Below, one piece after another: positions 14,292 through 44,174 of a stretch of DNA of 64,000 bases (its first letter is position 1; the number at the start of each line of letters is the position of its first letter). A model generated the notes under the pieces. The model was given only the letters and a program-made list of their open reading frames with translations, had not been told where the DNA came from and did no database searches. The translations under genes were made by a program, and so were the position numbers. The DNA comes from Murdochiella massiliensis (GTDB taxonomy: Bacteria > Bacillota > Clostridia > Tissierellales > Peptoniphilaceae), in assembly GCF_900059565.1 (NCBI RefSeq), contig NZ_FIZW01000002.1, positions 992,001 through 1,056,000 of the forward strand. The letters are read 5' to 3'.

Positions 14292-17200
14292 TTATTCTTT
14301 GTTAAAGTACTCTTTTGCCGCTTCAAACAACTTAAGATCCGCAACTTCCGGCAGATTCCGATAGAGGAAGCGACCGGTGCGCTCGCTGTGCCCCATTTTG
14401 CCGAGGATTCGTCCGTTGGGCGAAAGCAGAGCCTCAACAGCTCCCAAGGACCCGTTCGGATTGTAGGCAATATCCATGCTTGGTTCACCATGCGCATCGA
14501 CATACTGTCCAGCAACCTGACCATTTTTAAACAGCTGCTTTAAGCGCGCTTCATCCATCTGCAAACGGCCTTCTCCGTGGGAAACGGGAACGCGGAAGCA
14601 TTGTCCCGGTGTAACATGGGCGAGCCAAGGCGAATTATTGGTGACGATGCGCGTGGTCACCATCTGCGACTGGTGACGTCCGATCGTATTGTACGTGAGC
14701 GTCGTCAATTCAGGACTGGGCGGCATCAGGCGTCCGAAGGGGAGCAGTCCGAGTTTTACCAGTGCCTGGAAACCGTTGCAGATGCCCAAAATCAGCCCTT
14801 CACGACGATCTAACAAGTCGGTGAGCGCATCGGCGAGTTCCGCATTGCGGAAGAAGGCGTTGATGAGTTTGGCGCTGCCATCCGGTTCATCCCCGCCGGA
14901 AAATCCGCCCGGAAGGAAGAGGATCTGTGCCTCACGAAGGGCTGCGGCCATTTCCTCGACGCTTCGAGAGATGTCTTCCGTAGTTTGGTTGCGTACGAGC
15001 TGAATGCGGGGAACAAGTCCTGCGCGTTCAACATAGCGCGCCGAGTCCACTTCACAGTTCGTTCCCGGAAAGACGGGAATTACAACGCTTGGCGCCGTAT
15101 TTTGCAGGGAGAAGGTTGTGCCGTGATAGATCGGGAAGGGATGCGACTCGGCGTGTTTTTTCGCCAGCTCTACGGCATCTTTCGCTTCGGCAAAAAGCGA
15201 GGCAGGTGGCGCTGCCGGTGTCGTGGGATAGATGTCCTTAAGTGTTTCTTTTCGCAGGGCAGAAATACTCTTCAGGTCAATTGTGGCATCCGGGAAGGTC
15301 AGCGTATAGGCTTCCGTGGTTTTGCCGATTTCCTGCACGTTCACGCCGGGAAGGTCACCAAGCGGATTATCCGATGCGATGAGGAAGGCACCGAAGCCGG
15401 GCGTCGTAAGAAGCGACGGCGTGACTTCTTTCGTTAACGAGGCGCCGATTTCGTTTCCGGCAGCGGAGAGCACCAACGCTTCCATCAGTCCGCCGTAGCC
15501 AAGCGCATAAGCGCTATGCACATCTTCACGTTGCGTGAGGTCTTCCATGGAGGTAAAGAGAGCGTTCAACGAAGCGAGTTCCGGTAATCCCGCGGGATTT
15601 TGGTTCGGACACAGCAGCGTCAAGTACTGACCCGGTGCTTTCCATTCGGGGGAAAGCACGCGTTTTACGCTGTTTGTAGTGATGGCGAAGGAGACGAGTG
15701 TCGGCGGAACATCCATGGATTCAAAGGTGCCCGACATGGAATCCTTTCCACCAATGGAACCGACTTCGAGATCCAGTTGTGCCTGTAGGGCGCCGAGAAT
15801 GGCTTCGAGCGGTTCCTGCCAACGCTCAGGGATATCTCCGGGGCGCTTAAAGTATTCCTGAAAGGTCAGATACGTCTGTTTTCGATCGGCACCCGTTGCC
15901 AGCAGTTTTGCCAGCGACTCAACGACCGCAAGATAAGCGCCGTGATATGGACTCTTTTCCGCTACTTCCGGGGAGTAGGCCCAGGACATGAAGGATGCCG
16001 TATCGGTTTCCCCCTTTTCGAGGGCAATTTGATGCACCATAGCCTGAATCGGTGTAGAATGCGTTTTTCCGCCATAGGGCATGAGGACCGTTCCCGCACC
16101 GATTGTGGAATCGAAGCGATCCACCAAACCATGCTGATCGGCATTGCGCAAATTGCGGGCAAACGTGGTAAAGAGTGCTTCGAGGTCTTTTTCTTCGGTC
16201 GTGGGTTTCGGCTGCCACGTCGCGGCTCTTGCCGGGATGGAAATGTGCTTTTCCGCGCCGTTGGAATCTAAAAATTCACGCGAAAGATCCAAAATGGTTT
16301 GGCCGTTCCACTCCATTTGCAGACGGGGGATGGCCTGAATTTCAGCCACAACAGTAGCTTCCAGGTTTTCGGATGCGGCAAGGGTCATAAATCGCTCGCG
16401 ATTTTCCGGCGCAATGACCACAGCCATGCGTTCCTGCGATTCACTGATGGCTAATTCGGTACCATCCAGTCCGGCATATTTCTTGGGCACGCGATCCAGA
16501 TAGATATGGATGCCATCAGCCATTTCGCCGATGGCAACCGATACACCGCCGGCGCCGAAATCGTTGCAGCGCTTAATCATACGCGCTGCTTCGGCATTAC
16601 GGAAGAAACGTTGCAATTTCCGCTCTTCCGGCGCATTTCCTTTTTGTACTTCTGCGCCTGCCGTTTCCACGGAATGCAGGGTGTGCGCCTTGGAGGAACC
16701 GGTGGCTCCACCGATGCCGTCGCGGCCGGTACGTCCGCCGAGAAGAATGACCACATCACCGGGAGTCGGTGTTTCCCGTACAACATTTTTTGTCGGCGTG
16801 GCGGCGACGACCGCTCCGATTTCCATACGCTTTGCCGCATAGCCCGGATGGTAGATTTCATGCACCATGCCGGTGGCCAGACCGATCTGGTTGCCGTAGG
16901 AGGCATAGCCTTGCGCCGCTTCCGTAACGATTTTGCGCTGCGGAAGCTTCCCTTTCAGCGTTTCGGCAAGAGGGGTACGCGGATCGGCCGCGCCGGTTAC
17001 GCGCATGGCGGCATAGACATAGGCACGCCCGGACAGCGGATCACGAATGGCTCCGCCGATGCAGGTGGAAGCACCGCCGAAGGGTTCGATTTCTGTGGGA
17101 TGATTGTGTGTCTCGTTTTTGAACAACAGCAACCACGGCTCTTTTTTGCCGTCAATGGTCACGTCCATGTGTACCGTGCAGGCGTTGATTTCTTCCGAAA

Positions 17201-18050
17201 CATCCTCACCGGTGAGTTTTCCGGTTTTACGCAGGTAACGTGCAGCGATGAGGGCCATATCCATGAGACAGATCGGCTTGCTGTCCCCGGTTTCTTTCCG
17301 AAGGCGAAGATAGGTTTCATAGGTATCCTGCAACAGGCGATCTTCAAAGGTCACCTCATCAATGATGGTGCGGAACGTGGTATGACGGCAGTGATCCGAC
17401 CAATACGTGTCAATCATACGAATTTCGGTTTCGGTCGGATCGCGCTGTTCTTTTTGGAAATAGCGCTGACAGAAGAGAAGATCATCGTCATCCATGGCGA
17501 GCCCTTTTTCCTCACGGAAGGCGGCAAGCGCCTCGGCATCAGCATGGATGAATCCCTCCAGCGTAGGCACAGCTTTTGGCTCGGTTTCCGCCCACTGCAA
17601 GGTTTCCGGAAGGGCATCGGATGCTTCGCGTGCTTCCACGGGGTTGATAAGATGCGTCCGCAGGCGATCCTGATCCTCTTCGGAAAGCGTGCCTTCAAAA
17701 AGATAGACGCGCGCGGTTTTTACGCGCGGCTCTTCCACGCGAGAAAGCAGGCGCAGACAGAGCTCAGCGGAGTCGGCCCGCTGATCGAATTGGCCGGGAA
17801 GAGGCTCAACGGAAAGATGCGCATCGGATTGCGGCAATTTTTCCATGACCTCATCTACCGTAGGATCGGAAAAAATGGTCTCGACCGCTTGGGCAAAAAC
17901 GACATCATCGACGCCTTCCACATCGTAACGATGCAAAATACGTACACTCTTGAGTGACCGCACCTGCACAAAATCCTGCAGGTCATGCAGAAGCGCGCGT
18001 GCTTCTTGCGCATGGGCGGGCTTCTTTTCAACATAGACACGACGAATCAT
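14292..18050 (-). CDS. purL: Phosphoribosylformylglycinamidine synthase, single-chain
   Basis: 1252 residues: the large one-chain form of FGAM synthetase that converts FGAR, ATP and glutamine to FGAM. The N-terminal PurS-like part, the two AIR-synthase-like halves (for example TFRTIIDEVTFED, ETHNHPTEIEPFGGA and IGGKDSMSGT) and a C-terminal class I glutaminase domain are in order. The glutaminase nucleophile is in GICNGFQAL, and its histidine and glutamate follow in SHGEGRL. It is the last gene of the leftward purine operon; its start overlaps the purD stop (ATGA). A separate PurQ is therefore not needed. Confidence 0.97.
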   Translation of the reverse strand: MIRRVYVEKKPAHAQEARALLHDLQDFVQVRSLKSVRILHRYDVEGVDDVVFAQAVETIFSDPTVDEVMEKLPQSDAHLSVEPLPGQFDQRADSAELCLRLLSRVEEPRVKTARVYLFEGTLSEEDQDRLRTHLINPVEAREASDALPETLQWAETEPKAVPTLEGFIHADAEALAAFREEKGLAMDDDDLLFCQRYFQKEQRDPTETEIRMIDTYWSDHCRHTTFRTIIDEVTFEDRLLQDTYETYLRLRKETGDSKPICLMDMALIAARYLRKTGKLTGEDVSEEINACTVHMDVTIDGKKEPWLLLFKNETHNHPTEIEPFGGASTCIGGAIRDPLSGRAYVYAAMRVTGAADPRTPLAETLKGKLPQRKIVTEAAQGYASYGNQIGLATGMVHEIYHPGYAAKRMEIGAVVAATPTKNVVRETPTPGDVVILLGGRTGRDGIGGATGSSKAHTLHSVETAGAEVQKGNAPEERKLQRFFRNAEAARMIKRCNDFGAGGVSVAIGEMADGIHIYLDRVPKKYAGLDGTELAISESQERMAVVIAPENRERFMTLAASENLEATVVAEIQAIPRLQMEWNGQTILDLSREFLDSNGAEKHISIPARAATWQPKPTTEEKDLEALFTTFARNLRNADQHGLVDRFDSTIGAGTVLMPYGGKTHSTPIQAMVHQIALEKGETDTASFMSWAYSPEVAEKSPYHGAYLAVVESLAKLLATGADRKQTYLTFQEYFKRPGDIPERWQEPLEAILGALQAQLDLEVGSIGGKDSMSGTFESMDVPPTLVSFAITTNSVKRVLSPEWKAPGQYLTLLCPNQNPAGLPELASLNALFTSMEDLTQREDVHSAYALGYGGLMEALVLSAAGNEIGASLTKEVTPSLLTTPGFGAFLIASDNPLGDLPGVNVQEIGKTTEAYTLTFPDATIDLKSISALRKETLKDIYPTTPAAPPASLFAEAKDAVELAKKHAESHPFPIYHGTTFSLQNTAPSVVIPVFPGTNCEVDSARYVERAGLVPRIQLVRNQTTEDISRSVEEMAAALREAQILFLPGGFSGGDEPDGSAKLINAFFRNAELADALTDLLDRREGLILGICNGFQALVKLGLLPFGRLMPPSPELTTLTYNTIGRHQSQMVTTRIVTNNSPWLAHVTPGQCFRVPVSHGEGRLQMDEARLKQLFKNGQVAGQYVDAHGEPSMDIAYNPNGSLGAVEALLSPNGRILGKMGHSERTGRFLYRNLPEVADLKLFEAAKEYFNKE

Positions 18051-19333
18051 GCTTGGCTCCTTTCCAGCGCTTCAAGCGCTTTCTGTCCGATATCGGTGCG
18101 GAAGAACTTGTTGCGAAAGGTGACGAATTCCGCCGTTTTGTAGGCTTTATCGATCGCTTCGCGAAGCGTCGGCGCCGTTTCGACTACGCCGACCACGCGT
18201 CCGCCGTTGGTATAGTAGGTGCTTCCTTTTTTACGCACTCCGGCGCAGAAAATTTTATCGCGCAGGTGACGAGGAAGTGTAATTTCCACATTCTTTTCGT
18301 ATTTTTTGGGGTAGCCGTCGGAAGCTAAAACGACGCAGCAGGAAGCGCCATCTTGAAACTGCACCATATCCGCATCCAGTGTTTCGTTGGTAACGGCCTG
18401 AAAAAGGGTGAAGAGGTCGCTTTCAAGAAGAGGAAGGATAGCCTGTGCCTCAGGATCGCCGAAGCGGCAGTTGTATTCCACCACTTTCGGGCCATCTTTT
18501 GTGAGCATGAGTCCGAAGTACAGGCAGCCTTTGAAGGGGATGCCCTCCTCGCGCATACCGTTTATGGTCGGTTCAAAAATGGTTTTTCGGCACAGTTCGG
18601 CGATGTCCTCGGTATAGAACGGATTGGGAGCAATGACGCCCATGCCGCCCGTGTTGGGTCCCTTGTCGCCGTCATAGGCGCGTTTATGATCCATGGAGGA
18701 GAGGAGAGGAACGATGGTCTTGCCGTCGGTAAGGGTGAGCACCGTCACTTCCGGCCCTTCCATGAATTCTTCCACGATGAGACGATGACCGCTTTCCCCG
18801 AAGGCATCTTTCTCCATAAAGCGCGTAAGCGTTTCCTGGGCTTCTTCTTCGGTTTCGGCGATGACGACACCCTTTCCCAGTGCCAGACCGTCCGCTTTGA
18901 TGACCAGCGGAAGACGTCCGGCGTTTGCTTCGGCATGCACATAGTCACGGGCTTCCTGCACATTCTCGAAGGCTTCATAGCGTGCAGTGGGAATGGCGTG
19001 GCGTTTCATAAAGGCTTTCGCAAAAATCTTGGAACCTTCCAATTGCGCAGCGGCTTTGGTCGGGCCGAAACAAGGGAATCCCGCTTCGGTAAAGTAATCG
19101 ACCGCGCCCTCTACGAGCGGATTGTCGGGACTGACAACGATATAGTCGACGTGCTCGGTTTTGGCAAACTGCAGCAGCGTTGGAAAGGCATCGACGGCGA
19201 TGGGAAAGGGCGTTCCGCCATCCATGCCGTCGTTTCCCGGTGTGCAGTAGATGCGGTTAATGGTCGGATTTTTGCGCAACGCCTTGATGATGGCGTGCTC
19301 GCGGCCACCGCCGCCCAAGATCAAAACATTCAT
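18047..19333 (-). CDS. purD: Phosphoribosylamine-glycine ligase
   Basis: GAR synthetase, 428 residues, an ATP-grasp enzyme joining phosphoribosylamine and glycine. The start at 19333 gives the typical N terminus MNVLILGGGGREHAI behind AGAGGTG; the longer open frame is not used. ATP-grasp features are visible in the middle (PLVIKADGLALGKGVVIAET in parts) and GDPEAQAILPLL near the end. It overlaps purL by four bases. The substrate phosphoribosylamine is unstable and is made by PurF of the same operon. Confidence 0.96.
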   Translation of the reverse strand: MNVLILGGGGREHAIIKALRKNPTINRIYCTPGNDGMDGGTPFPIAVDAFPTLLQFAKTEHVDYIVVSPDNPLVEGAVDYFTEAGFPCFGPTKAAAQLEGSKIFAKAFMKRHAIPTARYEAFENVQEARDYVHAEANAGRLPLVIKADGLALGKGVVIAETEEEAQETLTRFMEKDAFGESGHRLIVEEFMEGPEVTVLTLTDGKTIVPLLSSMDHKRAYDGDKGPNTGGMGVIAPNPFYTEDIAELCRKTIFEPTINGMREEGIPFKGCLYFGLMLTKDGPKVVEYNCRFGDPEAQAILPLLESDLFTLFQAVTNETLDADMVQFQDGASCCVVLASDGYPKKYEKNVEITLPRHLRDKIFCAGVRKKGSTYYTNGGRVVGVVETAPTLREAIDKAYKTAEFVTFRNKFFRTDIGQKALEALERSQA

Positions 19334-19427
19334 CAGACACCTCTTTCTGTGCTTCGCGCATTGCGCGCGCGGATTTTCATGCCTTGCGTCGTTTTTTCTC
19401 GCGGCACTCTTAAACATGCAAATTGCA

Positions 19428-20612
19428 TTAGTGATGGAATAGACGCTGATGCGTGAAGACCATGGTCATGCCGCAGGCGTCCGCTTGCTGTCGAACGGCA
19501 TCATCGCGGGTAGAACCGCCCGGTTGTGCAATGTAGCGCACGCCGCTCTGTGCGGCACGCAAAATATTATCGGCAAAGGGGAAAAACGCATCGCTGGCGA
19601 GGGCGAGATGCGCCTCGCGACGAAGATAGGCGGCGCGCTCTTCTTTGGTGAAGGGCTCGGGACGCGATGTGAAATACAACGGCCAGCGATCCTCGGCGGT
19701 GACATCCTCTTCATAATCATGTAGATATTGGTCAATGACGTTATCGCGCGCAGCGCGCGTTAAATCGCTGCGAAACGGCAGCGACAGCACACGTTCGCTT
19801 TGACGAAGTCGCCAGGTATCCGCTTTATCGCCGGCCAGGCGTGTACAATGAATGCGGGATTGTTGCCCCGCGCCGACACCGATGGCCTGCCCGTCTACCG
19901 CAAAACAGACGGAATTGGACTGCGTATACTTTAGCGTGATGAGTGCAACGAGAAGATCCCGTTTTGCCGTCGGTGGCAGGTTCTTTTCTTGGGTGACGAT
20001 GTCGCCCAAGGCATCGAGGGAAAAGCGGCAATCGTTGCGCTTCTGCGTAAACCGAATGCCGAACACTTCTTTGGATTCCATGGGTTGTGGGACATAGTCG
20101 GGATCAATGGAAACGACGTTATACTTGCCGTTTTTCTTTTCGTGTAACAGCGCGAGCGCTTCCTCGCTATAGCCCGGCGCAATGACGCCATCTGAAACTT
20201 CCCGGCGAAGCAAGCGCGCGGTGGTGGCATCGACAGGGCGAGAAAGGGCAGCCCAGTCGCCGAAGGAGCTGAGACGGTCGGTGCCGCGTGCCCGTGCATA
20301 GGCTGAAGCCAGCGGAGACTCGTCCAGACCGTCAACATCCTCGACAAAACAGGCGCGTTTCAGGACATCCGGAAGGGGAAGACCGAGCGCAGCGGATGTG
20401 GGGGAAACGTGCTTAAAGGAGGCAGCAGCCGCCATTCCGGTGGCTTCGTCCAATTCACGGACCAGCTGCCAGGCGTTTAACGCATCCAGAAAGTTGATAT
20501 AGCCGGGGTTGCCGTTTAGGACGGTAAAAGGCAGTTCACCGCCATCGGCACGATCCAGACGTGCCGGCACCTGATTGGGGTTACAGCCGTATTTTAATGG
20601 ACATTCCTGCAT
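19428..20612 (-). CDS. purH: AICAR formyltransferase only (no IMP cyclohydrolase domain)
   Basis: 394 residues corresponding to the formyltransferase half of PurH; the N-terminal MGS-like IMP cyclohydrolase half is absent. The catalytic Lys-His pair is in SFKHVSPTSAALG and the AICARFT hallmark is YTQSNSVCF followed by GAGQQSRIHCTRLAG. It transfers formyl from 10-formyl-THF to AICAR. Start ATG 20612 is set by GGAGG six bases upstream. This is not a truncation artefact: the length fits stand-alone AICARFTs (sometimes called PurV), and the missing activity is encoded on the PurN fusion three kilobases upstream in the same operon. Confidence 0.93.
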   Translation of the reverse strand: MQECPLKYGCNPNQVPARLDRADGGELPFTVLNGNPGYINFLDALNAWQLVRELDEATGMAAAASFKHVSPTSAALGLPLPDVLKRACFVEDVDGLDESPLASAYARARGTDRLSSFGDWAALSRPVDATTARLLRREVSDGVIAPGYSEEALALLHEKKNGKYNVVSIDPDYVPQPMESKEVFGIRFTQKRNDCRFSLDALGDIVTQEKNLPPTAKRDLLVALITLKYTQSNSVCFAVDGQAIGVGAGQQSRIHCTRLAGDKADTWRLRQSERVLSLPFRSDLTRAARDNVIDQYLHDYEEDVTAEDRWPLYFTSRPEPFTKEERAAYLRREAHLALASDAFFPFADNILRAAQSGVRYIAQPGGSTRDDAVRQQADACGMTMVFTHQRLFHH

Positions 20613-20701
20613 GATGACCTCCTGAGGTTCAGAACAAGCGAGATACACTTGAGCAAAAGCGGCATAGAACGGAACCTCCCGAACTATGCTTCGCGTTCGG
20701 C

Positions 20702-22132
20702 TTAAACGGATAAGGTGATTTTACGATCGCTATCGTGATACTTTGCAATCAACGGATCGGCCACGTCGGCAAGGAAGCGTTCCACCTGTTCGCGGCAACG
20801 CCCGGTGTAGGCGGAAGGCTCCAAATGAGCGCGAATCTCCTCTTCGGTGAGGGGAATCTTTGTTTCTTGCGCCAGGCGCGCAATCAGATCGTTCGGTTTT
20901 CCCTCTTTGACCGCACGTGCCGCCGCATGCGAATGCACGCGAATCAGCTCATGAAGTTCCTGGCGATTGCCGCCGCGTTTTACCGATTCCATCATAATAT
21001 TTTCCGTCGCCATGAAGGGCAGCTTTTCCATTACACGACGGCGTACCACGGCTTCATAGACGGTCATATTTTCCGTGACATTCATATAGATGTTCAAAAT
21101 CGCATCCGTCGCAAGAAACGCTTCAGCGACGGCAATGCGCTTGTTGGCAGAATCATCGAGCGTGCGTTCCATCCACTGGGTAGCTGCGGTAAAGGCAGGA
21201 TTTAAAGCGTCCGTCATGACATAGCGAGCCAGTGCGGTCATACGCTCCGCACGCATCGGGTTGCGCTTATAGGGCATGGCGGAGGAGCCGATCTGTTCTT
21301 TCTGGAAGGGTTCTTCCATCTCTTCAAAAGACTGTAACAGGCGCAGATCGTTCGCAAATTTGGAAGCGCTCTGTGCGATGCCGGACAAGGCGGAAAGGAA
21401 GAACGAGTCGATTTTGCGGGAATAGGTTTGACCGCAGACCGGAATCAGGCGGGGAAAATCAAAGGCGGCGGCGATTTTTTCATCCAGCGCCTGTACTTTT
21501 TCGGCATCTCCGTCAAAAAGCTCCATAAAACTGGCCTGAGAGCCGGTTGTACCTTTTGCTCCGCGGAAGGCCAATTGGTCGATTTGGAATTGCAACTGTT
21601 CCATATCCATAGCGAGCTCGTTCATCCATAGCGTGGCACGTTTTCCCAGCGTCGTCAGCTGTGCCGGCTGCAGATGCGTATAGGCCAGCGCCGGAACATC
21701 CTTGTAACGATCGGCAAAACTACGCAAATTGACCAACACCTGCGCCGCTTTATGCAATAGCACCATGGACGCTTCACGCAGGATGATGAGGTCGGTGTTG
21801 TCGGTCACATAGCAGCTCGTGGCGCCCAGGTGGATGATGGGCGCGGCACTCGGCGCCTGTTGACCGAAGGCATAGACGTGACTCATGACATCATGGCGAA
21901 CGATTTTTTCCCGTGCTTCGGCAACGGAAAAGTTGATGTCGTCTTCCACTTTCTCCATTTCTTTGATTTGTGCGTCCGTAATGGCCAGACCAAGTTCCCT
22001 TTCCGCACGGGCAAGCGCAATCCAGAGTTTACGCCACAGATGAAATTTATGCTGGGCGGAAAAGAGAAACTGCATTTCGTCGCTGGCATAGCGCGTCGAA
22101 AGGGGCGAGAGATAACGATCGTATGCGTCCAT
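20702..22132 (-). CDS. purB: Adenylosuccinate lyase
   Basis: 476 residues of the fumarase/aspartase superfamily. It cleaves SAICAR to AICAR and adenylosuccinate to AMP, so it serves both the de novo pathway and AMP formation. The superfamily signature is GSSAMPYKRNP, and a catalytic-histidine region appears as HLGATSCYVTDN and AYTHLQPAQ. The length is near the longer (Clostridium/human) subgroup. It lies between the PurN-PurO fusion and purH in the leftward operon, with about 90 bases on either side. Confidence 0.96.
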   Translation of the reverse strand: MDAYDRYLSPLSTRYASDEMQFLFSAQHKFHLWRKLWIALARAERELGLAITDAQIKEMEKVEDDINFSVAEAREKIVRHDVMSHVYAFGQQAPSAAPIIHLGATSCYVTDNTDLIILREASMVLLHKAAQVLVNLRSFADRYKDVPALAYTHLQPAQLTTLGKRATLWMNELAMDMEQLQFQIDQLAFRGAKGTTGSQASFMELFDGDAEKVQALDEKIAAAFDFPRLIPVCGQTYSRKIDSFFLSALSGIAQSASKFANDLRLLQSFEEMEEPFQKEQIGSSAMPYKRNPMRAERMTALARYVMTDALNPAFTAATQWMERTLDDSANKRIAVAEAFLATDAILNIYMNVTENMTVYEAVVRRRVMEKLPFMATENIMMESVKRGGNRQELHELIRVHSHAAARAVKEGKPNDLIARLAQETKIPLTEEEIRAHLEPSAYTGRCREQVERFLADVADPLIAKYHDSDRKITLSV

Positions 22133-22225: not shown

Positions 22226-23671
22226 TCACGATTCTTCGCTGAAACGACTCTTTTGGAAGATTTGGAAGCCGTTTGCGGTTTGCACTTCCACATAAAGCGC
22301 AATGCGATTCTGTGCATCCAACGCCTTCCAAAGATTGTCCGTGAACGTCTTCGCGTCGCCATCCCAGGCGAAACGCATCGGTTCGCCCTGAAAGCTTGGA
22401 AGTGGGTTGCCATTCGTCACATAGGTGGAGAGGAAGCGACCGAATCCGGGTTCTTTTTCATATCGGAAGGCGTAGTAGCCCGCCTGTTTTCCGCTTGCAT
22501 TCAAGGCCTTCCAGATCGAAAGCTGCATTCCATCGGAACCAAGCAAGCCGGAGATACGCGGAGTAAAGTGCGGAGCATCCGGTTCAAAACGACGGCTTTG
22601 TAAAGCGTCATCGAAGGACTTTCCTTGGGATAGGCCTTCAAGAATGGTGTCGGTCTGGTCCCCGTTGGTGACCACCGTCACGGGCTTTTCACGATACATG
22701 GTGTGGGAAAGTGCACGATAGATAATCAGACTCGGATCCTCAACCAGAGCCGGATCATGGGCTTGGGTGTAGAGATCGCCGTCTCGTTGGACAAAGATGC
22801 GGTTTTGGCTGTTCGCGCTTCGTCCCATAATAAAATACGCCACAAGACGTTCATCGTGCGGGCCATGCGCCAACGCAATACCGCGCCCGGGATAGGGATT
22901 GCCGACGACAAGAGGGGCCAGAGATGGCGCATCGTCTCCCACTTGGGAACCGGCTTGGGCACAAACGTGGGGATTGACTTGCGCAGCCGTTCCCATATTG
23001 GCAAAGAACGGCGCTTTTTCTGCTGCGCAAAGGGGCACGTTGATGGCTTGTTTCGGCAAATCCCTTGTTAAACGCACGGCAAGCGCATGAACGACTGCCG
23101 GAAGAAGACGCCATTCGGCCTGTTTCATGACGCGGCGCTGCAGGGTTTCCGGTGTATCGTCTTCATGCACCGAAACGGCATGCTGTGCCAGAATCGGACC
23201 GGCATCCGCCTCGGCCGTTACGAAATGCACTGTAGCACCGGTAATCTGTTGGCGATGTTGAAGCACTGCTTCATGCACATGCAGTCCGTAGTAGCCGCGT
23301 CCGCCGAACGAAGGCAAAAGTGCCGGATGAATGTTCACGATGCGATCGGGATAGGCTTGAATCATGCGCGGTGAGAGCACGCGCAAAAAGCCGGCCAGCG
23401 CGATGAGCGCAATATCGGCTTCCTTTAATGCATCCAAAACCGCTTCGTCCCAGGCGTTGCCAGGAAAATCTTTAGCGGAAAAGACGGCGGTAGGAATATT
23501 CGCGTTTTTTGCCCGCTCCAGCGCATAAGCATCCGGCTGATCGGAAAGTACGAGGGAAATCTTTGCCGGTGCCAATTTTCCGGCGGATTCGGCATCGAGA
23601 AGCGCCTGTAAATTGGTGCCGCCGCCCGACACAAAGACCGCAACGGGAACGCAGGACCCTTTGCCGGTCAT
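22226..23671 (-). CDS. purN: PurN-PurO fusion: GAR transformylase plus IMP cyclohydrolase
   Basis: 481 residues in two parts. Residues 1 to about 205 are 10-formyl-THF-dependent GAR transformylase: VAVFVSGGGTNLQALLD, the catalytic Asn/His in NIHPALLPSFGG and Asp in DAGPILAQH. Residues about 235-481 match the PurO-type IMP cyclohydrolase family (PF07826-like), seen in GNPYPGRGIAL, AYFIMGRSANSQNR, VTNGDQTDTI and FEPDAPHFTPRISG. The junction (about 206-235) is linker-like. The first methionine overlaps the purM stop (ATGA). One chain thus does step 3 and the last step of IMP synthesis, and supplies the activity missing from the operon's PurH. The frame is uninterrupted. Confidence 0.93.
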   Translation of the reverse strand: MTGKGSCVPVAVFVSGGGTNLQALLDAESAGKLAPAKISLVLSDQPDAYALERAKNANIPTAVFSAKDFPGNAWDEAVLDALKEADIALIALAGFLRVLSPRMIQAYPDRIVNIHPALLPSFGGRGYYGLHVHEAVLQHRQQITGATVHFVTAEADAGPILAQHAVSVHEDDTPETLQRRVMKQAEWRLLPAVVHALAVRLTRDLPKQAINVPLCAAEKAPFFANMGTAAQVNPHVCAQAGSQVGDDAPSLAPLVVGNPYPGRGIALAHGPHDERLVAYFIMGRSANSQNRIFVQRDGDLYTQAHDPALVEDPSLIIYRALSHTMYREKPVTVVTNGDQTDTILEGLSQGKSFDDALQSRRFEPDAPHFTPRISGLLGSDGMQLSIWKALNASGKQAGYYAFRYEKEPGFGRFLSTYVTNGNPLPSFQGEPMRFAWDGDAKTFTDNLWKALDAQNRIALYVEVQTANGFQIFQKSRFSEES

Positions 23672-24720
23672 AGAATCACCTTCTCCAGCGAGGATACCAC
23701 TTCACCCAGGCGATAGGCTTCCTCGCCTTCTTCTTGCAGGACTTCAAGCGCTGTGGGAAGATCTTCTTTCGCTACGACGATGACGAAGCCGACGCCCATG
23801 TTAAAGGTGTTGTACATATCGTGCGTCGTAATTTTTCCGGCTTCCTGAATGAAGCGGAAGAGGAAGGGCAAACGAAGTGCCGCACGATCGATATTGGCAC
23901 CGAGACCTTCCGGAAGCGCGCGCGGAATATTTTCATAGAAACCGCCGCCGGTGATGTGCGCCATACTTTTTACGTTTACCTGCTTCATGAGGGAGAGCAC
24001 GGGCTTAACATAGATGCGTGTCGGTTCCAGAAGCGCTTCGCCGAGCGTTTTGTCGTCGAGCGTGGAATAGCGGGTCGTCCAGTCGGTATTTTTGTTTCCG
24101 TCCAGAATCTTGCGTACGAGAGAAAAGCCGTTGGAATGCACGCCGGAGGAAGGCAGAGCGATGAGCTGGTCCCCTTCCTTGACGTTGTTTTTGTCAATCA
24201 TGTTCTTTTCATCGACAAGACCCACAGCAAAACCGGCCAGATCGTATTCGTCTTCCGGATAGAAGCCAGGCATTTCCGCGGTTTCTCCACCGATCAGGGC
24301 ACATCCGGACTGGACACAGCCTTCCGCGACCCCCTTCACGATTTGTGCTATGCGTTCCGGATCATTTTTTCCGCAGGCGATATAGTCGAGGAAAAAGAGC
24401 GGTACGGCGCCACTGCACAGAATATCGTTGACACACATGGCGACGCAGTCGATGCCGATGGTGTCGTGCTTATCCAGCAAAAACGCATATTTGAGTTTTG
24501 TGCCTACGCCGTCAGTGCCGCTGACGAGAATCGGCTTTTCCATGCCGGCAATGTCCGGAGCAAAGAGCCCGCCGAATCCGCCGATGCCGGAAAGTACGCC
24601 CGGTGTCGTTGTGCGTGCAATATGTTCCTTCATTAACTCTACCGCGCGATAGCCGGCGGTAATGTCTACGCCCGCTTCTTTATAGGCAGCAGAAGAGGAC
24701 TGTCGATTCATCTCATCCAT
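23668..24720 (-). CDS. purM: Phosphoribosylformylglycinamidine cyclo-ligase (AIR synthetase)
   Basis: 350 residues; ATP-dependent closure of the imidazole ring to give AIR. The start at 24720 shares a base with the purF stop (TAATG) behind GGAG, which also yields the normal N terminus; upstream in-frame codons belong to the purF overlap. Family motifs include AGVDITAGYRAV, the substrate loop SGTDGVGTKL and the glycine-rich HITGGGFYENIPR. Overlaps the next gene, the PurN-PurO fusion, by four bases. Confidence 0.97.
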   Translation of the reverse strand: MDEMNRQSSSAAYKEAGVDITAGYRAVELMKEHIARTTTPGVLSGIGGFGGLFAPDIAGMEKPILVSGTDGVGTKLKYAFLLDKHDTIGIDCVAMCVNDILCSGAVPLFFLDYIACGKNDPERIAQIVKGVAEGCVQSGCALIGGETAEMPGFYPEDEYDLAGFAVGLVDEKNMIDKNNVKEGDQLIALPSSGVHSNGFSLVRKILDGNKNTDWTTRYSTLDDKTLGEALLEPTRIYVKPVLSLMKQVNVKSMAHITGGGFYENIPRALPEGLGANIDRAALRLPFLFRFIQEAGKITTHDMYNTFNMGVGFVIVVAKEDLPTALEVLQEEGEEAYRLGEVVSSLEKVIL

Positions 24721-26144
24721 TATTCTTCTCCATTCCAGCAATAGGTGCACAGTTGGCAGCGAGGAAGCCCGATGGCTTCGATGGTTCCTTCCAGCGTCTG
24801 GTATTCCAGCGAGGAAAAATGAAATTGTTCGGCAATCTTGTCGCGCATGGCTCGCCCGCGTTCGGTGTTACCGTCACGGTATTCGTCGAGATGATTAAAG
24901 CCTTCTTCCCCTTCCAGCTGCAGGATGATACGGCGAGTAAGCAGTTCCATCTCGTTGTTGGTGCGCGAAAAGTTCAAATATTTGCAGCTAAAGAGAATCG
25001 GTGGCGACGCGGAGCGCATGTGGACGCATTTTGCACCGTTGCGGTAGAGAAAATCGACCGTTTCACGAAGCTGGGTGCCGCGCACGATGGAATCGTCCAC
25101 GATGAGCAACTTCTTGTCGTCGATGTAATCCGTAATGGGCAACTGTTTCATGTGGGCCACGCGATTGCGTTCCGCTTGGCGTGCAGGGGTAAACGAGCGC
25201 GACCAGGTCGGCGTGTATTTGAGCATCGGACGTCCGAAGGGTACGCCGCTTTCAAAGGCATAGCCCTGTCCATAGGCCAAACCGGAATCCGGTACACCGC
25301 CGACAAAGTCAATATCGGGAATGCCGTTATTTTTCCGATCATTCTCCGCCATAATTTCGCCGCTGCGATAGCGGGATTTTTCCACTCCCTTGCCTTCATA
25401 GGCGGAATTGGCATAGCCGTAATACGTCCAAAGGAAAGCACAGATTTTCATTTCTTCCTGTGCTTCCAGAACCGTTTTGAAGCCGGTGGGCGTAATTTCC
25501 ACCGCTTCGCCCGGGCCAAGCTCTTTTACCGTTTGATAGCCCAGCTTGCGGTAGGGAAAGGGTTCGAAGGAAACGCAATGTCCCTCGGCGTTTTCGCCTA
25601 CAAAGACGGGAAGGCGTCCATAAAAATCGCGAGCAGCGATAATGGCGCCGTCATCTTTTAACAGCAGCAACGAAGCCGTTCCTTCGATACGCCGCTGCAC
25701 GGCGCGAATGCCGTCGATATAGGAATCTTCCTCGGCCATCATGGCGGCGATGAGTTCCACGCTGTTGACTTGCCCGTTGGTCATGGCGTCAAAGTGTGCG
25801 CCGGGTTTCGAAAGATATTCTTCAATCAGCTTCTCTTTGTTGTTGATCACGCCGATGAAGCAGAGGGCAAAGGTACCGAATTTCGATCGGATCAAAAGCG
25901 GCTGTGGATCGTAATCGCTGATGCAACCGATCGCGGACGTGGCTTTCATTTCCTCAAAAATGGATTCAAAACGGGTCCGAAACGGTGAATTTTCAATGTC
26001 ATGAATTTCCCGTTGCAGTCCGATCTCCTTGTCATAGCCCGCCATGCCGGCACGGTGTGTGCCGAGATGTGAATGGTAGTCGGTGCCGTAAAACACATCG
26101 ACCAGGGCGTCCCGCCGGGAGGCAACGCCAAAAAAACCGCCCAT
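24720..26144 (-). CDS. purF: Amidophosphoribosyltransferase-like PurF lacking the N-terminal cysteine
   Basis: 474 residues with the full PurF layout: an N-terminal Ntn-type glutaminase fold and a C-terminal phosphoribosyltransferase domain with the PRPP loop LLIVDDSIVRGTQL. It should commit PRPP to purine synthesis. The N terminus reads MGGFFGVASRRD where classical PurF has MCGI or a propeptide followed by CGI, so the nucleophilic cysteine is absent. The start is secure because AAGGAG lies six bases upstream. I recall similar cysteine-less PurF proteins in Bacteroidetes and some Clostridia, but cannot confirm. A conserved tail CQLCTYCW is also present. Ammonia use or another glutaminase partner is inferred. 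Confidence 0.9.
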   Translation of the reverse strand: MGGFFGVASRRDALVDVFYGTDYHSHLGTHRAGMAGYDKEIGLQREIHDIENSPFRTRFESIFEEMKATSAIGCISDYDPQPLLIRSKFGTFALCFIGVINNKEKLIEEYLSKPGAHFDAMTNGQVNSVELIAAMMAEEDSYIDGIRAVQRRIEGTASLLLLKDDGAIIAARDFYGRLPVFVGENAEGHCVSFEPFPYRKLGYQTVKELGPGEAVEITPTGFKTVLEAQEEMKICAFLWTYYGYANSAYEGKGVEKSRYRSGEIMAENDRKNNGIPDIDFVGGVPDSGLAYGQGYAFESGVPFGRPMLKYTPTWSRSFTPARQAERNRVAHMKQLPITDYIDDKKLLIVDDSIVRGTQLRETVDFLYRNGAKCVHMRSASPPILFSCKYLNFSRTNNEMELLTRRIILQLEGEEGFNHLDEYRDGNTERGRAMRDKIAEQFHFSSLEYQTLEGTIEAIGLPRCQLCTYCWNGEE

Positions 26145-26218: not shown

Positions 26219-26935
26219 TTAGGCCTGTTCGCCGAATACGCGATGCATCATTTCTTTATAGGCATCTTCGACACCGCCCATATCGCGGCGGAAACGGTCT
26301 TTGTCCAGCTTTTCATTGGTCTCAGCATCCCAGAAGCGGCAGGTATCCGGCGAAATTTCATCCGCCAACACGATGGAACCGTCAGCGGTACGACCGAATT
26401 CCAACTTAAAGTCCACCAGCTTGACGTTGAGCTTCTTGAAATAAGCTCTCAATGTATCATTGACTTTGAACGCCATTTCCGTGATACGGTCCAGTTCCTC
26501 TTCGGTGGCCAATTTAAGAGCCAACACATGATAGCGGTTAATCAGCGGATCATGCAGGTCATCATCTTTATAGGAGAATTCCAGCGTCGGCTGATCGAAC
26601 ACGATGCCTTCCTCTACGCCATAGCGCTTGGCAAAGGAACCGGCGGAAATGTTACGGATAATGACTTCCAGCGGCACAATTTCGACTTTTTTGACCACCG
26701 TGTTGCGATCATCCAGTTCTTTTACGAAGTGTGTCGGCACGCCTTCCTTCTCCAACAGTTGCATGAGGAAGTTCGTCATGCGGTTGTTGATGGCGCCCTT
26801 TCCGACGATGGTTCCACGCTTTGCACCGTCTCCGGCTGTAGCATCATCCTTATAGGACACGATGACTTTGTCGCTTTCGTCCGTAGCGTAAACTTTTTTT
26901 GCTTTTCCTTCGTAGAGCTGTTCCAGTTTTTCCAT
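26219..26935 (-). CDS. purC: SAICAR synthetase
   Basis: 238 residues, the usual short bacterial form. It joins CAIR and aspartate. Recognisable parts are [11 protein letters not shown] at the N terminus, [15 protein letters not shown], and DFKLEFGR with SPDTCRFWD near the end. The ribosome site AAGGAGG lies seven bases before the start. Upstream, between it and purE, stands a terminator-like hairpin and a small stem-loop, so expression of purC and everything downstream may be separated from purE. Confidence 0.97.
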
Positions 26936-27063: not shown

Positions 27064-27561
27064 TTATTTTTCAGCAAAGCGGGCAGAAATATTGCGGTCT
27101 TTCTCCCGGACGTTTTCGGCATCTTTTGCGCGCTTTTCTTCCAGACGTTTGTCGAGCGCCTCATCGCTAAGCGCAAGAATTTCCGCGGCAAGCAACGCGG
27201 CATTTTTCGATCCGTTGATCGCAACTGTTGCGACCGGAATGCCCGAGGGCATCATCACCGTTGAAAGCAAGGCATCCATGCCGTCCAAGGCCTGAGAAGT
27301 GCAAGGAATGCCGATAACCGGAAGCGTGGTGTTCGCTGCAAATGCACCGGCCAAGTGGGCAGCCATACCTGCGGCACAAATGAGTACGCCGAAGCCGTTT
27401 TCTTTCGCATGTACCGCAAAGTCGCGTGCTTCTTCCGGTGTGCGATGCGCGGAATAGACGTGTACCGCAAAGGGAATCTCCAGTTCCTTCAGGATATCCA
27501 CCGCTTTTTCCATGATGGGCAAATCGCTGTCACTGCCCATGATCAACGCTACTTTTTTCAT
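27064..27561 (-). CDS. purE: N5-carboxyaminoimidazole ribonucleotide mutase
   Basis: 165 residues. The N-terminal [13 protein letters not shown] and the active-site SAHRTPE are typical of class I PurE, which converts N5-CAIR made by PurK to CAIR. No purK lies in the operon, so either it is elsewhere or carboxylation is bypassed. The C terminus carries a roughly 20-residue basic/acidic tail beyond the fold. Start at 27561 is fixed by AAGGAG. First gene of the purine cluster, 82 bases after the ATPase stop; no clear promoter or purine riboswitch is visible in that gap. Confidence 0.95.
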
Positions 27562-27643
27562 GATGACTCCTTTCGTCAAGCCTGCGGCGATGCCGCTTTT
27601 GTAACGAATGTTTTTTCCTCGTCGGAAAGAACAGGGCGAAGAA

Positions 27644-44100: not shown

Positions 44101-44174
44101 CGGGGTGTAGCGCAGTTCGGTAGCGCACTTGTCTGGGGGACAAGGGGTCGCAGGTTCAAATCCTGTCACTCCGA
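44101..44174 (+). tRNA. tRNA-Pro (anticodon GGG)
   Basis: 74 bases folding as a cloverleaf: acceptor CGGGGTG pairs with CACTCCG (one G-T pair), anticodon stem CTTGT/ACAAG holds a seven-base loop CTGGGGG with anticodon GGG, and the T arm contains GGTTCAAATCC. The discriminator is A and CCA is not encoded. A tyrosine integrase gene follows 98 bases downstream on the other strand, so its 3' end is the probable attachment site of the prophage. Confidence 0.95.
44150..44174 (+). other. Probable prophage attachment site (left) at the tRNA-Pro 3' end
   Basis: Inferred from position: integrase gene directly downstream, phage genes continuing to the window end. Integrases of this type use the T arm and 3' end of tRNA genes. 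The matching right site would lie outside the window, so the exact core is not visible. Confidence 0.5.

Follow-up and report, generated by a model that had tools for sequence, protein, structure and literature searches.

In the closest system described so far, the PurN-PurH1 fusion of Halobacteria, PurN is joined to a late-step enzyme of purine synthesis, and the last step, in the absence of PurH2, is expected to fall to PurO, as far as the accessible text of PMC3261824 goes. PurO itself is called exclusively archaeal in the available portion of PMC4177761, and a count cited in the accessible part of PMC6797443 places it in 22 out of 1266 bacteria. Multi-step purine enzymes on one polypeptide are also represented by the trifunctional GART and the bifunctional PurH (ATIC) of vertebrates (PMC10912719, accessible text). 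A fusion of PurN with PurO was not known to the sequence-only reading that preceded this study, and the literature searched, most subscription papers lying outside it, gave no description of one, nor any assay of its activities.

The fused gene and its domains

Our analysis concerns the window, i.e. the whole stretch of 64,000 nucleotides from Murdochiella massiliensis, whose minus strand contains one uninterrupted frame of 481 amino acids. The frame starts with an ATG, and AGGTGA is found 4 bases upstream of it. Its parts are as follows:

22226..23671, minus strand: purN-purO fused gene, 481 aa (open reading frame, Pfam and NCBIfam)
23075..23644, minus strand: PurN (GAR transformylase) domain, residues 10-199, with N113, H115 and D156 (profiles, structure match, alignment)
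22898..23074, minus strand: linker, residues 200-258 (model confidence, selection, start-codon scan)
22244..22897, minus strand: PurO-type IMP cyclohydrolase domain, residues 259-476, Ntn-hydrolase fold (Pfam, structure match, alignment)

The N-terminal half is matched by Formyl_trans_N from Pfam (158.5 bits, residues 10-193) and by the PurN equivalog of NCBIfam (TIGR00639; 187.3 bits at a cut-off of 150.1, residues 10-199). The PF07826 search that had been proposed for the C-terminal half returned IMP_cyclohyd with 143.6 bits at a gathering score of 28.1; the match covers residues 260-465 and profile positions 1-189 of 192. The single PurN-PurO reading frame, claimed from the letters alone, is thereby confirmed. 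The archaeal PurO equivalogs score only 21.3 bits at a cut-off of 158.35 (TIGR01922) and 39.7 bits at a cut-off of 150 (NF003167). Hence, the domain is a divergent PurO, and from the sequence alone a solved PurO is reached only at an E-value of 0.055.

An AlphaFold2 model of the fused protein, based on a 67-row alignment, has a mean pLDDT of 88.6 and a pTM of 0.56, the latter meaning that the mutual placing of the two halves is not predicted; residues 229-244 of the linker are of low confidence. The PurN half matches the PurN structures 3p9x and 2ywr, and PurN structures head the match lists. The PurO half matches 2ntk, 2ntm and 1kuu, all of them MTH1020 PurO, with Foldseek E-values between 1.2e-11 and 2.7e-12. 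These matches span model residues 256-476 (from 259 in the case of 1kuu) with VIA Z-scores of 19.3-19.7 over 193-196 residues. VIA-align was run on the whole model and yields mostly matches to the PurN half; the PurO matches likewise come from this whole-protein model. According to the best of them (2ntk; Z 19.7, 196 residues, rmsd 3.0), the predicted model has the Ntn-hydrolase fold of MTH1020. Together with the nearly complete PF07826 profile, the structure matches bear out the claim of a full PurO-family domain at the C-terminus.

Operon neighborhood and genome content

The fused gene lies among other purine genes – purE, purC, purF, purM, the fusion, purB, purH1, purD and purL – all encoded on one strand:

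27064..27579, minus strand: purE, with an ATG and Shine-Dalgarno match at 27561 (Pfam, start scan)
26219..26935, minus strand: purC (Pfam)
24720..26144, minus strand: purF, two Pfam domains, both weak and the second under the cut-off (open reading frame, Pfam)
23668..24750, minus strand: purM, with a 4-base overlap with the fused gene (open reading frame, Pfam)
20702..22132, minus strand: purB, adenylosuccinate lyase (Pfam, NCBIfam)
19428..20648, minus strand: AICAR transformylase-only PurH (purH1), without the cyclohydrolase half (Pfam, NCBIfam)
18047..19417, minus strand: purD (Pfam, NCBIfam)
14292..18050, minus strand: purL, large form with glutamine amidotransferase domain (Pfam)

At the gathering threshold, no Rfam match was found near the purine operon; the sole match in the window is a tRNA gene at 44101-44174 on the plus strand.

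The absence of the cyclohydrolase half from the operon's PurH, part of the sequence-only reading, proved correct: the protein has 406 amino acids and scores 601 bits with NF005492, a type of 390 positions with a cut-off of 415, and of the bifunctional PurH (TIGR00355) only profile positions 204-511 are matched genome-wide. The genome measures 1.64 Mb in 2 contigs and is 99.26% complete. PF07826 has a single match in it (the fusion), as does PF01808 (the truncated PurH). One PurN match lies above the cut-off; a second, weak one (72.2 vs 150.1 bits) is presumably fmt. Profile searches of this 99.26% complete genome thus detect neither another IMP cyclohydrolase nor the full-length bifunctional PurH that the earlier reading had asked to be looked for; it is possible but unlikely that such a cyclohydrolase gene was missed in the two contigs. 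Genome content therefore supports the proposal that the fusion carries the final purine step. Since Gln occupies the column of the presumed catalytic Arg, the cyclohydrolase activity itself is something we infer.

Distribution of PurO and of the fusion

PF07826 is found in 10 of 130 genomes of the family and 11 of 249 genomes of the order, in 173 of 391 genomes of an even sample of the class Clostridia, and in 24 of 398 genomes of a phylum sample. The share in the class sample is far above the 22 out of 1266 bacteria cited in the accessible part of PMC6797443. Among the class-level PF07826 matches listed, which do not include the weak ones of Murdochiella/Levyella, no frame exceeds 325 amino acids. 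The label "archaeal-type" that had been given to the domain is misleading, because PurO is this frequent in Clostridia, whose sequences are the nearest to that of the fused domain.

Following the suggestion to trace the fusion through the family, we found PurN-PurO in all five genomes examined of the genus Murdochiella/Levyella. One of the genes (G092) is identical in DNA to that of the window, so that four distinct sequences remain; the proteins share 63-85% identity with the window's protein. In the other five PurO genomes of the family (genera g16, g27 and g28), purN and purO are separate neighboring genes, which overlap by 4 bases in g27 and abut or overlap in g16 and g28, depending on the start codon. 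The gene order of Murdochiella/Levyella recurs in g27 (two of three genomes examined) and g28, while g16 has no purB within the stretch examined. As the ten PurO genomes belong to only four genera, they do not represent ten independent events. In all ten, the purH profile match starts at position 185-205, i.e. covers the transformylase half only. Among the 120 family genomes that lack PurO, the purH match takes in the cyclohydrolase half in 113 and is absent altogether in 7; this half is a separate piece in G020 and G119, and purH is split in G051 and cut short in G077. A purH frame of 904 amino acids in G079-G081 most plausibly comprises both purB and purH1, which share a frame interrupted by a TAG, and no purH-purD fusion was found in G079 or G080.

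Other PurN-PurO joins and the number of origins

We examined 80 named loci nearest to the fused PurO (the best 80 of at least 590). At least six of them contain both domains in one frame (L045, L046, L055, L063, L078 and L093); this is a lower bound, since in several of the 80 loci the sequence stops so close to PurO that a PurN would not be visible. L045 and L046 belong to the genus Murdochiella/Levyella; L063, cut at the contig start, and L093 each come from one MAG record. A search of a plasmid collection added one further join, L129, from a record of Subdoligranulum variabile, where an in-frame PurN-PurO lies within a purine operon (L129:2272-3678); the record is labelled plasmid and may be chromosomal. 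The five joins outside the genus represent four other Bacillota lineages.

Several candidates were rejected. In G926 (open frame of 446) only PurO is matched in frame, and the long frames of L104, L071 and L113 contain no second domain. In the MAG frame L073:2605-3705, PurO is combined with the terminal stretch of PurN behind a portion of PurM; a deletion, or chimerism of the MAG, is the probable cause. Rhizobial plasmids (L125-L128) carry a stand-alone PurO with 42-44% identity to MTH1020, compared with 31% for the PurO of Subdoligranulum.

In the PurO tree of 118 rows, the 8 fused rows need 5 changes, at least 4 of which are forced by starred branches; with L129 added, the 9 fused rows need 6 changes, again with at least 4 forced. 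A single fused clade is rejected (p-AU 0.016) on a 50-row PurO tree that comprises the 8 fused rows and 42 of the 110 unfused ones, selected by choice; starred branches of this smaller tree force only 2 changes. The PurN tree requires 4 changes for its 8 fused rows, just 1 of them being forced by starred branches, so that several origins are not shown by this tree alone. The position of the genus PurO is unstable between trees: it groups either with same-family neighbors or with other rows, and its branches are long. On these topologies, the PurN-PurO join likely arose more than once, which falls short of proof.

Proposed function

Very probably, the fused gene encodes a bifunctional enzyme that performs step 3 with its PurN half and step 10 with its PurO half, works beside a separate transformylase, and goes back to an ancestral in-frame join. 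According to this model, the PurN half would formylate GAR with 10-formyltetrahydrofolate. The neighboring stand-alone AICAR transformylase (step 9) would supply FAICAR, and the PurO half, whose Ntn-hydrolase fold would function without a free N-terminus, would close the ring to IMP. We infer that both halves are catalytically active, that they are tethered, and that substrate is not channelled between them. Because other steps lie between step 3 and step 10, the gain from the join is most likely a fixed 1:1 supply together with physical tethering, and not a transfer of substrate from site to site. The fusion would have originated in the ancestor of the genus by in-frame joining of adjacent purN and purO genes, within an operon presumably ordered purF-purM-purN-purO-purB-purH1-purD-purL.

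Linker, internal starts and the possibility of separate enzymes

The strongest competing explanation, improbable in our judgment, is that the working enzymes are separate, either because the polypeptide is cleaved after translation or because an internal start yields free PurO; it is compatible with both proposed activities. The linker is of low confidence in the model, under relaxed selection (see below), and variable in length among relatives. Furthermore, three joins outside the genus (L055, L093 and L129) possess an ATG at the PurO start with a Shine-Dalgarno match of 5-6 bases located 6-9 bases upstream; in L063 a 5-base match lies at a distance of 13 bases, and in L078 the match comprises 4 bases only. 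Within the genus, one GTG about 16 residues ahead of the YPGRG motif is common to three of the four distinct sequences. However, none of the 14 in-frame ATG, GTG or TTG codons in the genus linkers (four distinct sequences), among them this common GTG, has a Shine-Dalgarno match of at least 5 bases, the best reaching 4, whereas the same scan finds such a match at 6 of 10 operon starts. The four operon starts without one are the frame-first starts of purE, purM, purH1 and purD, and purE has a better start further in. Given this lack, PurO of Murdochiella/Levyella is apparently made only within the fusion. As for cleavage, PurO is reported to be without the nucleophile and the self-processing of other Ntn hydrolases (PMC6797443, accessible text), which argues against it.

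Active-site residues and selection

We return to the bifunctional enzyme and the residues on which its two activities would depend. As the catalytic Asn of E. coli PurN we take Asn106, the counterpart of N113. In the alignment, N113 and H115 (both within the motif NIHP) and D156 occupy the PurN catalytic positions, and the claim of intact catalytic residues thus holds; His108 and Asp144 are the ones named as catalytic for E. coli PurN in the accessible text of PMC3261824.

In the 118-row PurO alignment, R263, R284, R291, Y318, E363 and R372 are invariant, and the columns of Mth R5, R25, Y59, N73, D78, E104 and R112 show no variation. We take the catalytic Arg of PurO to be Mth R30 (MjR31), the Tyr to be Y59, and the Glu to be E104 (MjE102). 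The Y59 and E104 columns correspond to Y318 and E363 in 118 of 118 rows. Arg, Glu and Tyr are the residues postulated as PurO catalysts in the available part of PMC6797443. The Mth N54 column contains Asp in 117 of the 118 rows and Asn in one, compared with Asn in 23 of 25 archaeal PurO sequences according to the accessible text of PMC3261824. The R30 column, placed identically by a gap-free alignment and by a profile alignment that included a set of archaeal-like PurO from rhizobia and the MTH1020 stretch, contains Arg in 115 rows. The 3 rows with Gln are precisely those of the two Murdochiella proteins and the Levyella protein (Q289, encoded by window positions 22805-22807); in L008, the fourth of the genus proteins, the residue is Arg.

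This restricted replacement of the presumed catalytic Arg is what speaks for a further alternative, namely that the PurO half has lost its activity and persists on PurN as a tail with a structural or regulatory role. We consider this still less probable than separate enzymes. The Tyr, the Glu and the other invariant residues are kept. The other operon genes, purH1 among them, are retained as well, and profile searches detect no further IMP cyclohydrolase in the genome. Nor does the Arg appear to be strictly required: in Kang 2007, the R31K mutant of M. jannaschii PurO is reported to have about a quarter of its activity left. Judging from the alignment, R291, only two residues past Q289, may stand in for the Arg at the R30 position.

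Selection points in the same direction. Between the window's gene and that of G094, dN/dS amounts to 0.083 for PurN, 0.519 for the linker and 0.059 for PurO, values from one unsaturated pair, synonymous sites being near or at saturation for two more distant relatives. Both halves are under purifying selection and the linker is relaxed; the value for PurO is even below that of PurN, which argues against a mere tail. The dN/dS values of the two domains, both under 0.1, and the presence in five of five genus genomes (four distinct sequences) show that the fusion is not a product of chance. An assembly or sequencing artefact that merged two adjacent genes can practically be dismissed: one lost stop codon would suffice, given the adjacent separate genes of relatives, but the frame recurs in the four distinct sequences at 63-85% identity, the distance from the last LLP of PurN to YPGRG is 56-73 residues in Murdochiella/Levyella vs 34-39 in the five other joins, and one fusion genome is a single contig of 1,671,491 bases.

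A wider extension of the bifunctional model is possible, although we rather doubt it: PurN and PurO of Clostridia may form a complex, and the repeated fusion would be its trace. Adjacent genes would then have become joined in frame, an internal start being retained, and in Murdochiella/Levyella they would have become an obligate fusion. In those two, the catalytic arginine of PurO would also have shifted, with Gln at 289 and R291 taking over.

Comparison with known systems

What is new in the PurN-PurO protein is the combination of domains; the enzymes combined are known, and the kind of system is not new. The protein is significant because bacteria without PurH2 carry, covalently linked to another enzyme of purine synthesis, a type of IMP cyclohydrolase called exclusively archaeal (PMC4177761, available portion). 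The seemingly recurrent joins of step 3 with step 10 hint at which bacterial purine enzymes may touch. There is also a risk for annotation: if the protein is named GAR transformylase alone, the genome seems to lack the last purine step.

The stand-alone PurO of Clostridia, encoded beside a transformylase-only PurH, shares the operon neighbors of the fusion and is its closest relative outside the genus (42-53% identity among 78 named loci from the best 80 of at least 590); it differs in being mostly a separate polypeptide and in having Arg where Murdochiella/Levyella have Gln289. The euryarchaeal PurO proteins (MTH1020, TK0430) have PF07826, the Ntn-hydrolase fold, and the Tyr and Glu columns in common with the fused half. 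In contrast to them, the latter has only about 21% identity to MTH1020, remains under the archaeal equivalog cut-offs, and is located C-terminal to PurN. Vertebrate GART and PurH (ATIC) combine other partners, and the cyclohydrolase domain of PurH is unrelated to PurO (PMC6797443, accessible text). Finally, Halobacteria link PurN to the AICAR transformylase and encode PurO separately, according to the accessible text of PMC3261824, whereas in Murdochiella it is PurO that is linked to PurN, with the transformylase encoded on its own.
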